The translations under genes were made by a program, and so were the position numbers. The notes beneath the pieces are model-generated. The model was not told the DNA's origin. It did not search any database and worked only from the letters and a program-made list of their open reading frames with translations. From an uncultured Alistipes sp. (GTDB lineage: Bacteria > Bacteroidota > Bacteroidia > Bacteroidales > Rikenellaceae), in the NCBI GenBank assembly GCA_944321945.1, contig CALUNE010000015.1:1-52862 (forward strand): a stretch of 52,862 nucleotides of DNA. The letters run 5' to 3'. Positions 36,283 to 41,396 of this stretch are shown piece by piece (position 1 is the stretch's first letter; every line of letters starts with the position of its first letter).

Positions 36283-37260
36283 TTACGGTCGGGCCGAGCG
36301 CTCGCCGAATTGCGACTGCTGACGCCCCAGGTAGTCGAATTCGGCCCAGAGTCCCTCCTTGCGGACGAAGACATTGCTCTCGACGGGGTCGTAGTCGACA
36401 ATTTCGTAGACGGGCGGGATGATCCACCGGCCCTGACGATCGAGCAGGCCCATGCCCGTTTCGGTCTCGGCCTCGGCGCGGCCTTCGTGGAAATCGGAGG
36501 CCCAGCGGAGTGTCGAGGGGATTACCACCCGGTTTTCGGCATCGACGTAGCCGTATCCGCTTTCGTCCTCGACGCAGACCAGCCCTTCGGAGAGCTGGCT
36601 TGTCCAGCGATGGCCGGTCAGTCTGCGCAGCGGGTTGTACTCGGCGGTGACATCCGAGACCTGCATCGGATCCGAATGGCGAATCACCTCGGCGCGCAGA
36701 TCCTCGAAGAAGGGCGCATCGTTCTCGGGGTGTCCGAAGCGGGCGTCCTGATAGCGCATCGGGATGAAGCGGTCGCCGACCCATTGCAGATTGCGCGGCC
36801 GGAGGTTGTTGTGGGCGAACTCCAGCCGGCGCAGGGCCTCCTGCAGGCGGTCGAGGGCTTCGAGCAGCCGGTCGGTGGGTTCGCGGAGCAGCGCCTCTTC
36901 GAAGGAGAGGCCTTCGGGCAGGTATTCGAGCAGCAGATCGCTGTGCTGCTCATCGCCCGCCGGTGTTGTCCAACGCATTTCGCCCGTCAGCATCCGATAG
37001 GGGGAGAGCCAGTCGGTGTTGAGCCTTCCGATATGCGAGGCCGTGCGTTCGACGGAGACGATGGCCGACGGCGAGAGCGGCATCGAAAGCAGCCAGCGGC
37101 GATGCTGCCATTCGATCGTCGCTTCGACGAAACGGGTCGTGCGCATCAGTTGCGGCAGCCCTTCGGGGCCGAGCTTTACCCGTGCATCGGCAAGGCGTGA
37201 GAAACTGATATCGGGCATCAGCAGTGCCCGTGTAAAGGTTTGGATCGTAGGTGTCATCAT
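36283..37260 (-). CDS. pseudokinase-like protein with C-terminal WG repeats
   Basis: No characterised function. The 325-residue protein resembles the kinase-like gene at 40182-41396 along its length: similar N-terminus, a kinase-like middle, then WG (tryptophan-glycine, beta-hairpin) repeats. The position of the catalytic loop reads HNNLRPRN (residues 150-157) where the relative has HGDLKPEN, so the catalytic Asp is Asn. The metal-binding Asp of DFG/DFD is Arg (RYQDARFG, 169-176). Catalysis is therefore unlikely. About residues 230-317 hold WG-type units (YGYVDAENRVVIPS, MGLLDRQGRWIIPPVYE, LWAEFDYLGR). It starts 15 bp after the VWA gene. A scaffold or decoy role in the cluster is inference. 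Confidence 0.75.
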   Translation of the reverse strand: MMTPTIQTFTRALLMPDISFSRLADARVKLGPEGLPQLMRTTRFVEATIEWQHRRWLLSMPLSPSAIVSVERTASHIGRLNTDWLSPYRMLTGEMRWTTPAGDEQHSDLLLEYLPEGLSFEEALLREPTDRLLEALDRLQEALRRLEFAHNNLRPRNLQWVGDRFIPMRYQDARFGHPENDAPFFEDLRAEVIRHSDPMQVSDVTAEYNPLRRLTGHRWTSQLSEGLVCVEDESGYGYVDAENRVVIPSTLRWASDFHEGRAEAETETGMGLLDRQGRWIIPPVYEIVDYDPVESNVFVRKEGLWAEFDYLGRQQSQFGERSARP

Positions 37261-37275
37261 GGCGCTTGTGACTCT

Positions 37276-38133
37276 TTACTCGGTCTTGACGCTGATCGAG
37301 CCGATGTTGAGCATGGCGATCAGCTGTTCGGGCGAGGCGTTGTAGCTCATGCCGCGGAACGGCGGCAGGGCGCCGGGGCCCTTGGCTTCGCGGATCGCTT
37401 CGTTGAAGACCTCGGGCATCGGGCTCGAACAGTCGTAGAGCAGCCTTGCGTAGCGGTTCGGATAGCCGGCCTCCTCCTCCGAGGGGAAGAAGATGGCCTG
37501 CTGGGCGTCGCCCGGGGCGATGTGGATGTTGATCAGCAGCACGTTGCCGTCGCACGTGCGCAGCGAACGCAGCCTTTCGGCCACGGCCCGAAGCTCTTCG
37601 TCGTCGCAGTCCGTGGCTTCGCCGTCGGTGATGTTGAAGACCGTGGGCGGGAAGCTCTCCGCGTGGGCCGGGTTGCGGCACCATTCGGCCACCAGTTCGC
37701 AGGCTTCGTCCAGGGCCTGGTGCATCGGGGTTTGTCCGGCAGCCTCGGGAGCGACCCACGCCGGGGCCGGAATTTCGCGCAGGGCCGTCGACCCGTCGGG
37801 CATGCGGCACTCGATGACTTCGCGCCGCGTGGGGGCCTCACGGGCGGCAAGTTCCGCCACGGAGATCATCTTCCGCCCGTCGGGCAGCAGTGAATAGACC
37901 TCGTCGTTGCCCGAATAGGCCATTACGGCGATGTCATAATAGTCTCTCACCCCGTCGTTACGGCGGGCGCGTTCGATCAGTTCGAACAGCAGGCCGTTGG
38001 TGATCGAGGCCACGGCTTCGGCCTTGGTTGTTCGTTTGCCGCGGAAGAGGATCTCCTCGGCCATGGATCCCGAACCGTCGATCAGCAGCACGAAGGCCGT
38101 GCGGTGGGATCGTGTGATGCTTTGTGTGTACAT
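37276..38133 (-). CDS. VWA-domain protein (TerY-like)
   Basis: Cytosolic 285-residue von Willebrand A protein; no signal peptide or membrane helix. The metal-ion-dependent adhesion site (MIDAS) is complete: DGSGSM at residues 19-24, the threonine in GQTPMHQALDEA, and the aspartate in FNITDGEATD. These features, with intracellular location, match the TerY-type VWA proteins associated with kinases and phosphatases in stress-response clusters. It begins 12 bp after the DUF4954 gene and is followed 15 bp later by the pseudokinase gene. It likely binds a divalent cation and a partner protein in a signalling complex; the partner is unknown. Confidence 0.85.
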   Translation of the reverse strand: MYTQSITRSHRTAFVLLIDGSGSMAEEILFRGKRTTKAEAVASITNGLLFELIERARRNDGVRDYYDIAVMAYSGNDEVYSLLPDGRKMISVAELAAREAPTRREVIECRMPDGSTALREIPAPAWVAPEAAGQTPMHQALDEACELVAEWCRNPAHAESFPPTVFNITDGEATDCDDEELRAVAERLRSLRTCDGNVLLINIHIAPGDAQQAIFFPSEEEAGYPNRYARLLYDCSSPMPEVFNEAIREAKGPGALPPFRGMSYNASPEQLIAMLNIGSISVKTE

Positions 38134-38145
38134 GGGTATTGCGGG

Positions 38146-39876
38146 CTATTTCAAACCTCTTACGGCGTAGTAATCCTTGCGCCGATCCTCTTCGTTGTCG
38201 CAGTCCAGGCCGTAGCTGACGGCCATATCGAGCGAGCAGTCGCGGTCGCGGTCCGCATCGGTTGTGCGGCGCATGGCGGCGTGGGCGTTGCGGCCGGCCT
38301 GGATGGCCTCGTTGAGTTCGTCGATGTCGGGCATGTGGCCCAGCATGGCGGCGTAGACGCTGACGGCCCAGCTGTGGGCGTAGTCGTCGTAGTGGACGTC
38401 GAAGATCCGGAAGCGGTTGTCGATCGCGGCCAGATCGGTCAGGCGGCCCTCATCCACCTCGTCGAGAATCTGCTGCATGGCGCGCCGCGTCATGTACTGC
38501 CCGGCCGCGTCGATCCAGCGGCCCGAACCGTCGTAGCGGGGATTCGACTCTCCGCGGTCGAGCATCGCCCCGAGGGCTGCCACGATGGCCTTGTTGTAGA
38601 GCTTCAGACCCCGCTGGAGCGAGGCGGCGCGGATCAGTGTCTTATTATAGGTATAGACCTCCGCATCGGGGTCCTGCTCCTGCAGCGTGTGGAGGATGTT
38701 CACGGCGTCGATCATCGCCCCCGTGACGTAGGGGTTGTATTCGTCGAAGTCGATGACGTCGCGCCGGATCTTCCGCCGGTCGCGGGCCGGCCACTTCTCG
38801 ACGTCGCGCACGGCGCCGTAGCTGGTCAGGTTGGCACCCGGCATCAGATGGCTCCGGCCCTCCTTTTCGATCAGATAGGAGTAGGGAAAGGCCGACGTGT
38901 CGTGGTGGTAGGAGTGGTGGCCCATGATCATCGTGAAGGCCCCCTCGAGGGCCGGCGACATGATGTAGGCGCTCGAGGCGAACTTGCAGCCCCGCAGGTG
39001 GACCGACTGATGCACGGCGCCGCTTTTGAAGAGGTGGTTGCTCTGGTTCGAGCCGCTGCCGGCGTTGAAGAACGAGAACATGCCGGCGATGAGCAGCGAC
39101 GACTTGTGGTGCGAGACGGTGTAGGGGCCGGCGAAGATCGAGGCGGCTTCGCCGTTTTCGCAGTGCGAGTTGGCGAAGAAGAGCGATTCGGCGGCCGTGA
39201 AGCCCTTGTCGAGGATGCAGCTTTCGCCCACGAAGCAGCGTTCGATGATCGTTCCGTTGCCGATCCGGGCGCCTTCGGCGGCGATCAGGTCGTAGGCCTT
39301 GACGTCGACACCGATCGTGACATCGTCGCAGAGGGTGGCGTTTTCGAGGGCCGAGGCGCCGTCGATCTGCACGCGGTCGCCCATGCGCACCTCGCGGATG
39401 AAGCGGGCGCCGGCGATCCGGCAGTTGCGGCCCACTTCGCCCAGCTCCGACGAGCGGCTCTCCGCGTAGGCGTCGATCATGCGCTCCAGGGCGGCGATGG
39501 TCTGCTGACGGTGGCGGTAGACGGCCATGACGTAGGCCACCTGGGCCGACATCGTATCGAAGATCTTGACCGTTCGGCCGCCGCATTCGTTCATCGTGGC
39601 CACGCCGACGCCGTTTCCGAACGACGAGCGGTGGCGGCATTCGAGCGAGGTGACCCCTTCGACGATCGAGCCTTCGCCGATGCGGTAGTTGCACACGCGC
39701 GAGCGTACCATGCGGACGCCGGATGCGATCTCGACCTCACCGTCGAGCCGGCACTGAAGCAGTTGGGAGGGTTGGAAGTCCTCCGAGACCCGGATTCGCG
39801 ACCACTCTTCGGCCGTGTTCCCCATTTTTTCGAGCGAGGCGATCTCCGCCGCGGTCAACGTTCTGAATGATGTCAT
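38146..39876 (-). CDS. DUF4954 family left-handed beta-helix protein
   Basis: Uncharacterised family common in Bacteroidales. The 576-residue protein starts at the ATG at 39876 (MTSFRTLTAAEIASLEKMG). The first two thirds are rich in hexapeptide-type repeats (IGEGSIVEGVTS, VGRNCRIAGARFIREVRMGDRVQIDGAS, IGNGTIIERCFVGESC) predicting a left-handed parallel beta-helix as in nucleotidyl- and acyltransferases. A histidine-rich segment (IMGHHSYHHDTSAFPYSYL) may be an active or metal site, and the C-terminal third is helical. No catalytic assignment can be made. It opens the DUF4954-VWA-pseudokinase-trxB-rnz-methyltransferase run, with two promoters upstream. Confidence 0.8.
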   Translation of the reverse strand: MTSFRTLTAAEIASLEKMGNTAEEWSRIRVSEDFQPSQLLQCRLDGEVEIASGVRMVRSRVCNYRIGEGSIVEGVTSLECRHRSSFGNGVGVATMNECGGRTVKIFDTMSAQVAYVMAVYRHRQQTIAALERMIDAYAESRSSELGEVGRNCRIAGARFIREVRMGDRVQIDGASALENATLCDDVTIGVDVKAYDLIAAEGARIGNGTIIERCFVGESCILDKGFTAAESLFFANSHCENGEAASIFAGPYTVSHHKSSLLIAGMFSFFNAGSGSNQSNHLFKSGAVHQSVHLRGCKFASSAYIMSPALEGAFTMIMGHHSYHHDTSAFPYSYLIEKEGRSHLMPGANLTSYGAVRDVEKWPARDRRKIRRDVIDFDEYNPYVTGAMIDAVNILHTLQEQDPDAEVYTYNKTLIRAASLQRGLKLYNKAIVAALGAMLDRGESNPRYDGSGRWIDAAGQYMTRRAMQQILDEVDEGRLTDLAAIDNRFRIFDVHYDDYAHSWAVSVYAAMLGHMPDIDELNEAIQAGRNAHAAMRRTTDADRDRDCSLDMAVSYGLDCDNEEDRRKDYYAVRGLK

Positions 39877-40181
39877 AGTCGATGTTTTCAAAGTTCTGTG
39901 CCGCACGGAGCCTTTCGGGCGTGGGGCGACAAACGGTCGCGGAGGCAGAGCGTGGGCGAACGGCGGGAGTGCCCGGACGGCAGGACTTTCCGGTCGATCG
40001 CGTTCTGTTCCGCGATGGGAGAGGCGGTTGTTTCCCTTGGTTCAGGGTCCGGTTGTCGTCTCTCATTTTACAAAGATAGCGAAAGCCGGGAGCAGAGACA
40101 AATAGAAAATGGAATTTTCGAGATTTGGCTATGCCGAGGCGCATCCTATCTAAGAGCGAAGTCAAAGATAACGAATCGCAG
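39877..40181 (-). other. 305 bp leader and promoter region of the DUF4954 operon
   Basis: No gene is supported. It holds two minus-strand promoters and, between the nearer one and the DUF4954 ATG, about 190 bases of GC-rich leader. A minus-strand open frame crosses it in another phase but has no recognisable features. Confidence 0.5.
40071..40101 (-). promoter_or_regulatory. proximal promoter of the DUF4954 operon
   Basis: CAAAGATA (40071-40078) and CAA (40099-40101), spacer 20, read on the minus strand as TTG-20-TATCTTTG: full consensus match. Confidence 0.75.
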
Positions 40182-40192
40182 TCAAATCTCAA
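40163..40192 (-). promoter_or_regulatory. distal promoter of the DUF4954 operon
   Basis: CAAAGATA (40163-40170) and CAA (40190-40192), spacer 19. It overlaps the last codons of the kinase-like gene. Confidence 0.55.
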
Positions 40193-41396
40193 ACACTCGA
40201 CCCTGCGGATCGATCTCCATCCATCGGCCGTTGCCGTGGATCCGGGCGCGGCCCTGGCGGAAGGGTTTGACGACATCGCAGCCGGGACAACTCAGCCGGG
40301 TGCGGCCTTCGGGGTCGATGAAGTGCCACGTGCGGCCGAGCAGCACGGCCGCCAGCTCCTCCGAGAAGTCGAATCCGTTGTCGTAGAGCGGTGGGACGAC
40401 CACCCGCTGCGGGGTGCGGAATCCCCAGCGGCCCCGTTCGACGAACAGTTCCGGCAGGGCATCCGGTTGGAGCTCCCCGCCGCTGTTTTCCGCACAGTGC
40501 ATCCCGCGGGATGCGTCACTCGGCCTTTCGCCCGTGTCCCGGTCGGCGCTCTCCACGGCGGCCGCCAGCAGCGGCGCGAGATCGGGCAGCTCCGGGCGCG
40601 GGGCGAGCAGTTGCTGGGCAATGCGGTAGGGAAGGGCCATGCCGAGCGCCTCGAAGCGTTCGAGCGTCTCCCGCAGGGCTTCATCCGTGGCGATATGCCG
40701 CGGGTCGTAGAGTAACGAGTCCGGTGTGCCGTAACGCTCCCAAAGCGTCGGATCGACACTCAGGGCGTGCAGCGCCGTGGAGATCAGGGCGGCCGGGTAG
40801 TCGTCGAGCCGTTCGTTGAAATCTTCGGCCGTGCGGGCGGGGTGCTGATAGGCGGCCGTGCCCAGTTCGGGGCTGTTCTGGCCGGCGAAGCAGGGCAGGT
40901 AGGAGGCGTCGAAATCGATCGGATGCAGCATGCCGTCGTCGGTGACGAGGATGTTTTCGGGTTTCAGATCCCCGTGGGCGCGGTCGTCGGCTACCAGCGA
41001 GGCCGCCAGCCGGTCGAAATTCCCGGCCAGACGCTTGAGACACTCCCTGTCCCGAAGCCCGGCGGCCCGGGCGATCGCTTCGTGGAGGCTGATGCCCTCG
41101 ATCCAGTCGCCCAGGACGACATCGACCCATACGCCGCTCTCGGGCGACGTGTAGAGGTAGAGCTCCTTTTCGAGCAGCCGGTCGCCGTAGATTTCGCGCA
41201 GGTGGCGTTGCGGCCGCAGGTAGCCGCGCAGCGAGCGGATCCGGCCCCGGTGGCGGATGCGGAACACGACGGCCGAGTTGCCGACGCTGAAGCACATCCG
41301 TCCCGCCGGGTCACGGCACACCTCCACCTCGCCCAGCGTGCGGGTCAGTCCCGCCGGGTCGGAGAGCGTCATCAGATATTGACGAAGCGTATACAT
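40182..41396 (-). CDS. kinase-like protein with C-terminal WG repeats
   Basis: Protein-kinase-like 404-residue cytosolic protein. The catalytic loop HGDLKPEN (141-148, catalytic D143) and the metal motif DFD (161-163) are intact. The N-lobe is degenerate: no glycine-rich loop is clear and the usual VAIK lysine appears as Arg (VVFRIR, about 43-48), so ATP binding may be atypical. About residues 300-404 carry WG-type units (ERGRWGFRTPQRVVVPPLYD, RTWHFIDPEGR, GNGRWMEIDPQGR). The whole protein resembles the pseudokinase at 36283-37260. It ends 306 bp before the DUF4954 start and has a terminator 52 bp upstream of its own start, so it is probably a separate unit in the same module. Target unknown. 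Confidence 0.8.
   Translation of the reverse strand: MYTLRQYLMTLSDPAGLTRTLGEVEVCRDPAGRMCFSVGNSAVVFRIRHRGRIRSLRGYLRPQRHLREIYGDRLLEKELYLYTSPESGVWVDVVLGDWIEGISLHEAIARAAGLRDRECLKRLAGNFDRLAASLVADDRAHGDLKPENILVTDDGMLHPIDFDASYLPCFAGQNSPELGTAAYQHPARTAEDFNERLDDYPAALISTALHALSVDPTLWERYGTPDSLLYDPRHIATDEALRETLERFEALGMALPYRIAQQLLAPRPELPDLAPLLAAAVESADRDTGERPSDASRGMHCAENSGGELQPDALPELFVERGRWGFRTPQRVVVPPLYDNGFDFSEELAAVLLGRTWHFIDPEGRTRLSCPGCDVVKPFRQGRARIHGNGRWMEIDPQGRVFEI

Follow-up and report, generated by a model that had tools for sequence, protein, structure and literature searches.

A kinase, a TerY-type protein and a pseudokinase in Rikenellaceae: a probable signalling trio better put as a phosphatase-less variant of TerY-P

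The window analysed here is a stretch of 52,862 nucleotides from an uncultured Alistipes sp. of the family Rikenellaceae (contig CALUNE010000015.1 of assembly GCA_944321945.1). Between positions 36283 and 41396 it carries, as an initial annotation had claimed, four minus-strand genes: a kinase-like gene (K1), a DUF4954 beta-helix gene, a TerY-type von Willebrand A gene (VWA) and a pseudokinase gene (PK). We think it somewhat probable that K1, VWA and PK make up a vertically inherited signalling trio, which would derive from a TerY-P-type triad and in which a dead copy of the kinase would have taken the slot of the PP2C phosphatase. What we observe and what carries this view is the membership of the parts, the lack of a detectable triad-type PP2C, the near-single origin of PK and its loss of catalytic residues, the order of the genes, purifying selection and the joint loss of the three genes.

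The trio is close to universal in the family. VWA was matched in 107 of 120 Rikenellaceae genomes, and in 66 of the 71 good ones (at least 90% complete, at most 5% contaminated), while K1 matches come from 109 genomes and PK matches from 100, many of them partial or limited to the WG repeats. Outside the family VWA is rare: it was found in 9 of 247 genomes of the order, three of which belong to the family itself, and in 14 of 296 genomes of the phylum, one of them the window's own genome; the matches in G319 and G613 are weak. As only family proteins went into the profile, it may overlook distant TerY proteins. Within the genus of the window, 28 of 32 genomes carry VWA. PK is present in all 28 of these and in none of the other four, and K1 in 27 of the 28, the other four holding only a stump of it in one genome (G046). 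Five good genomes of the family are devoid of VWA (G045, G046, G066, G072 and G113), and they have neither PK nor a whole K1. Four of them keep DUF4954. Hence, the three genes disappear together, and DUF4954 does not go with them.

Gene order is equally constant for two of the partners. We read it in 61 loci, the window and 60 others picked from the 107 genomes matching VWA: in 60 of them VWA is followed on its strand by PK, at a median gap of 5 bp, and in the remaining one (L081) PK lies upstream. A second set, of 80 named loci retained from 372 confirmed places, has a PK-type gene or a piece of one behind VWA in 79 (78 found by script, plus L110, where PK is cut by the contig end with its start visible). 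At 61 of these 80 loci a gene of the K1 type, or part of one, precedes VWA on the same strand, and at 3 it is divergent. Among the 61 loci of the first set, 28 have K1 no more than 500 bp upstream, 13 have it upstream but separated by DUF4954, 2 have it about 1 kb upstream and 3 have it nearby on the other strand. Several of the other 15 keep K1 elsewhere in the genome, still beside fkbp in G077, G091, G093 and G102. The short spacing reported for the last three genes of the window is confirmed (12 bp between DUF4954 and VWA, 15 bp between VWA and PK); 305 bp separate K1 from the ATG of DUF4954, the gene that follows it. The adjacency of K1, VWA and PK is not confined to this genome.

The loci also share chromosomal places. 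In the own genus, the neighbourhoods of the 26 fetched loci (window not counted) include trxB in 21, rnz in 20 and trmH in 19; these names were read from the sequence, and family matches back trxB (thioredoxin reductase) and rnz. In another 39 loci (L051-L089) a prephenate-dehydratase-type gene lies upstream in 17, a label confirmed in L071 only. Outside the own genus the trio often sits behind aromatic amino-acid genes, for example prephenate dehydratase and 3-deoxy-D-arabino-heptulosonate 7-phosphate synthase/chorismate mutase, both confirmed, at L071:2841-6798. The tree largely follows kinship. Because presence is near-universal and the chromosomal places are shared, the trio has probably descended vertically and probably serves core signalling rather than mobile defence.

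PK is the unusual member. The end-to-end likeness of K1 and PK is clear in a profile-profile alignment (probability 100, E 6.4e-76), and both carry WG repeats (PF14903). The loss of both catalytic aspartates also stands: the window PK reads HNNLRPRN in the catalytic loop and RYQ where K1 has DFD. Across the 54 aligned PK rows, the catalytic Asp occurs in a single one, which is a mislabelled kinase (L081_PK1), and is absent from the other 53, whereas the DFD Asp is found in 7. One clade of the tree holds 52 of the 54 rows and its subgroups largely mirror those of K1, with the proviso that this was a quick tree with long branches, the length filter having removed 11 of the 65 PK rows and one kinase from outside the family. 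Read from this tree, PK descends from one K1-type duplication and is of near-single origin.

The regions in question are relatives of protein kinases by sequence in both proteins and, for PK, by predicted fold as well. The AlphaFold model of PK, made from an alignment of the window protein with 45 rows from named loci, assigns a kinase fold to residues 9-203 on structural comparison, in agreement with the sequence profile; because the comparison spans these residues, the WG half is left without a fold assignment. The kinase-like half is predicted to be ordered, most blocks having a predicted local distance difference test score (pLDDT) above 90. The WG repeat model is matched by all 28 aligned PK members and the Pfam kinase domain by none of them at E 0.001, so that annotation will present PK as nothing more than a WG-repeat protein. 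At residue 94 (window 36979-36981) 49 of the 54 aligned rows retain the alpha-C Glu; the column that should partner it has Lys in only 9.

We considered that PK might be decaying and rejected this on the ratio of nonsynonymous to synonymous substitution rates (dN/dS). In the kinase-like part this ratio lies between 0.05 and 0.32 in 18 of 19 close pairs, comparable to K1, which indicates purifying selection. These are simple Nei-Gojobori estimates, and the 19 pairs with PK are not independent of one another; two have the same values and are probably one pair under two names. The one outlier, L128-L127, reaches 0.57 in PK and is high in K1 and VWA too.

The other two members are recognisable as parts of TerY-P. 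The TerY model of PADLOC (PDLC02224) matches the window VWA over nearly its full length (E 8.5e-58) and matches 27 of 27 aligned family members; Pfam gives only weak VWA matches, all below cut-off, and a search of solved structures with VWA found nothing. The metal-ion-dependent adhesion site (MIDAS) of VWA is complete, as had been stated (D19-S21-S23, T135, D170), with D19, S21, S23 and D170 invariant and T135 conserved in at least 90% of the 27 proteins. The kinase model STK_OB (PDLC02223) matches the kinase part of the window K1 (E 1.2e-22, profile positions 108-236 of 562 only) and 24 of 24 aligned K1 members. Matches of K1 to Pkinase fall below the Pfam cut-off (E 0.0018), those to WG_beta_rep reach E 6.5e-6, and its profile retrieves solved kinases at a best E of 8.2e-7. 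Family models detect no OB (oligonucleotide/oligosaccharide-binding) fold or zinc ribbon on K1, whose tail appears to consist of WG repeats only.

K1 had been described as intact, and this has to be qualified. HGDLKPEN (residues 141-148) and DFD (residues 161-163) are indeed present, and Asn148 is Asn in all 45 aligned K1s. Yet, residue 57 is Arg in the window K1, where 36 of the 45 have Lys. We read it as the presumed beta-3 lysine because it is placed before the invariant Glu78. Arg57 recurs in 8 of the other 44 aligned K1s, all of the own genus. In ten kinases from outside the family this column holds Arg in 6 and Lys in 4, and the column of Glu78, the alpha-C Glu, holds Glu in 4 of 10; as the outside kinases vary in both columns, the alignment is loose around residue 57. 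The window K1 is better not called fully intact.

The absence of a phosphatase had been noted for the window alone, and it extends to the family: the TerY-P PP2C model of PADLOC (PDLC02222) matched 0 of the 120 genomes, phosphatases of other families not being searched. This model was applied because the library with PF13672 assigned no family at E 0.01 to three PP2Cs of the TerY-P type from non-family genomes (L171, L172 and L175). Since the model gave no match in its 14 built-in control genomes, we ran a positive control on outside genomes. It recovered a PP2C in 10 of 10 Bacteroidota genomes, chosen from 19 outside genomes that match VWA at all, and each time PP2C lay immediately behind VWA on the same strand; the control is partly circular, as PP2C was already known in 7 of the ten and G186 was left out. 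In the latter (L170, a 4.3-kb contig) the neighbours of VWA gave no PP2C match. PP2C_2 (PF13672) is found in 14 of the 120 family genomes, that of the window included, and shares a contig with VWA only in G040, at about 19 kb. With these reservations on the control, PK occupies, as far as gene order and model matches tell, the slot that PP2C holds in the outside relatives.

How such an arrangement could work is best put as a scenario. Its ancestor would have been a TerY-P-type triad of a kinase, a TerY VWA adaptor and a PP2C phosphatase. The PP2C gene would have been lost in the stem of the family, and its slot directly behind VWA would have gone to a second copy of the kinase that no longer catalyses, which would thus hold the place of the phosphatase and perhaps do its work. 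VWA would act through its MIDAS metal site as the adaptor bringing together K1, PK and a client. K1 would be the phosphotransferase, possibly weakened or altered by Arg57 in the window's clade. PK would perform no chemistry; it would bind K1, VWA or both, and set the state of K1 or its access to substrates, with the WG domains of K1 and PK as the sensing or binding ends. That PK replaced PP2C specifically as an off-arm, a dead paralogue on the VWA adaptor that blocks or redirects the live kinase, is a tentative extension that we regard as possible rather than probable. If true, it would be a bacterial swap of enzymatic reversal for stoichiometric control in one gene slot.

Several results weigh against the trio as we propose it, the limits of the phosphatase search, the left-out G186 and the PP2C_2 matches just given being among them. 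K1 is the loosest partner, at a distance of over 300 bp in the window and outside the fetched stretch in 15 of the 61 loci. One genome (G095) has VWA and PK and no K1 match, and at one locus (L139) VWA stands with PK lost; there, L139:8001-9000 shows a short stump only, between VWA and a trxB-like gene. Eleven PK rows were too degraded or too short for the tree and the residue counts. The window K1 may itself be weak, given Arg57. Finally, a physical complex, the direction in which PK would act, the substrate and the signal are all elements that we infer.

One might instead take PK for a mere WG-repeat scaffold with a vestigial kinase-like half and no regulatory role on K1. All four invariant PK columns (F257, E259, R261 and G312) fall in the WG part, and dN is higher in the kinase-like half than in the WG half in 15 of 19 pairs. 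Four loci (L059, L061, L067 and L076) show a gap at the catalytic loop of PK, where part of the C-lobe is seemingly deleted and the WG repeats remain, and this gap would fit a scaffold as well as a regulatory pseudokinase, which also tells against the trio as proposed. But a vestigial half is at odds with the purifying selection that acts on it and with its predicted order, and the alpha-C Glu is retained although its partner Lys is mostly gone. We hold the scaffold unlikely, if worth keeping in mind. Still less likely, in our judgement, is that the trio is a TerY-P antiphage system that lost a detectable phosphatase. Stand-alone TerY-P is reported as antiphage (PMC11090510, PMC7699616), and the matches to TerY and STK_OB are strong. 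Yet, K1 matches only the kinase part of the STK_OB model and no PP2C of the triad type was found. Moreover, VWA is not patchy in the good genomes of the family, the trxB neighbourhood is the same in 21 of 26 own-genus loci, with another shared place in 17 of 39 loci of other genera, and the tree largely follows kinship. Models labelled antiphage here mark what appears to be a core, vertically inherited signalling unit of a gut lineage. For that reason a defence annotation in this lineage would probably be misleading.

The signalling trio we favour also differs from the four-gene module first proposed, in which DUF4954 was a fourth partner. The window itself invites that reading, with adjacent genes on one strand and gaps of 12-15 bp, and in 13 of 61 loci, the window included, DUF4954 separates K1 from VWA. 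However, DUF4954 sits elsewhere in other genera (L192-L194 among them), survives in G045, which has no trio, and is absent from 6 of the 28 own-genus genomes with VWA. In G066, G072 and G113 the row fkbp-DUF4954-trxB persists with K1 and VWA-PK gone from either side. We therefore rejected the module of four, which we consider highly improbable; DUF4954 is a bystander, a resident of the locus and not a member of the trio. The claim that the genes act together is accordingly narrowed to K1, VWA and PK, which co-occur across Rikenellaceae. The Pfam match of the DUF4954 protein is well above the cut-off (PF16314, E 3.5e-139, 464.7 bits against a cut-off of 26.2, plus DUF6819, PF20683) and DUF4954 was found in 79 of the 120 family genomes; a search of solved structures with it found nothing. 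In G046, only the K1 stump is left at the fkbp-trxB place.

The original TerY-P papers are reportedly those of Anantharaman 2012 and Gao 2020. In PADLOC the system comprises TerY, STK_OB and PP2C, and the trio resembles it in encoding together a TerY-type VWA with a complete MIDAS and a related kinase, and in counting the gene right after VWA among its members. It departs from it in having no detected PP2C and a pseudokinase in its slot, in a kinase tail of WG repeats where the TerY-P kinase has an OB fold or a zinc ribbon, and in being near-universal in one family whereas TerY-P is patchy. TerY-P itself is described as a switch that works by phosphorylation and includes a metal-binding VWA protein (PMC11090510, PMC7699616). 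As its VWA and the kinase part of K1 are recognisable TerY-P parts, the trio does not amount to an entirely new type of system, although a candidate new one had been suggested; it seems better described as a phosphatase-less, pseudokinase-bearing variant of TerY-P.

Triads of other Bacteroidota encode relatives of VWA and K1. They keep PP2C, and in the stretches read none shows a pseudokinase next to VWA. One (G610/L175) has a kinase tailed with nine WG stretches, VWA and PP2C; another (G307/L171) has a kinase tailed with leucine-rich repeats, DUF6939, VWA and PP2C. In G542 (L178), also outside the family, no K1-type kinase was seen in the fetched stretch. In Escherichia coli, YegI-YegK-YegL are a kinase, a PP2C and a VWA protein. 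This small cluster is thus similar in joining a kinase and a VWA-type protein, and it differs in having PP2C and in not being known to include a pseudokinase.

The pairing of a kinase with a pseudokinase is a well-known theme of eukaryotic signalling. The pairs of eukaryotes, their parasites and viruses are not known to have a VWA adaptor. ROP18/ROP5 (PMC3493473) and poxvirus B1 with its paralogue (PMC6395007) likewise link an active kinase to a catalytically dead relative, in unrelated lineages and in no case as a bacterial operon. A literature search, to which subscription papers were mostly inaccessible, gave no recognised account of a TerY-type triad with a pseudokinase. A family-wide bacterial pair of kinase and pseudokinase paralogues, the dead one in the place of a phosphatase, offers a simple system for testing how control is taken over.

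Features of the trio locus, in window coordinates
Feature	Position	Strand	Basis
K1, protein-kinase-like protein with C-terminal WG repeat region, 404 aa	40182..41396	minus	family-model matches
K1 codon 57, Arg; presumed beta-3 lysine position	41226..41228	minus	Lys in 36/45 aligned K1s
K1 catalytic-loop Asp143 (HGD)	40968..40970	minus	Asp in 44/45 aligned K1s
K1 Asp161 of DFD	40914..40916	minus	Asp in 45/45 aligned K1s
DUF4954/DUF6819 beta-helix protein, between K1 and VWA	38146..39876	minus	Pfam
VWA, TerY-type von Willebrand A protein, complete MIDAS, 285 aa	37276..38133	minus	TerY model
MIDAS DxSxS of VWA, residues 19-23	38065..38079	minus	alignment of 27 proteins
PK, pseudokinase with C-terminal WG repeats, 325 aa	36283..37260	minus	sequence, profile, tree, predicted fold
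PK catalytic-loop remnant HNNLRPRN, catalytic Asp to Asn152	36790..36813	minus	alignment with K1
PK Arg169 at the DFD Asp position of K1	36754..36756	minus	alignment with K1

Some neighbouring arrangements deserve mention. The triads at L171:2566-8759 and L172:3091-8664 both have a DUF6939 gene (PF22075) between kinase and VWA, the kinase of the former carrying BspA-type leucine-rich repeats and that of the latter another C-terminal extension. The contig of G186 (L170:1-4282) holds a TerY-type VWA gene; a DarT-domain protein is encoded nearby, and neither of the two genes next to VWA was recognised as a PP2C. In the window's own genome, the PP2C_2 match lies in a separate cluster on another contig (G000:C6:84000-93000, L195), together with a canonical kinase, two FHA proteins and a trypsin-like domain.

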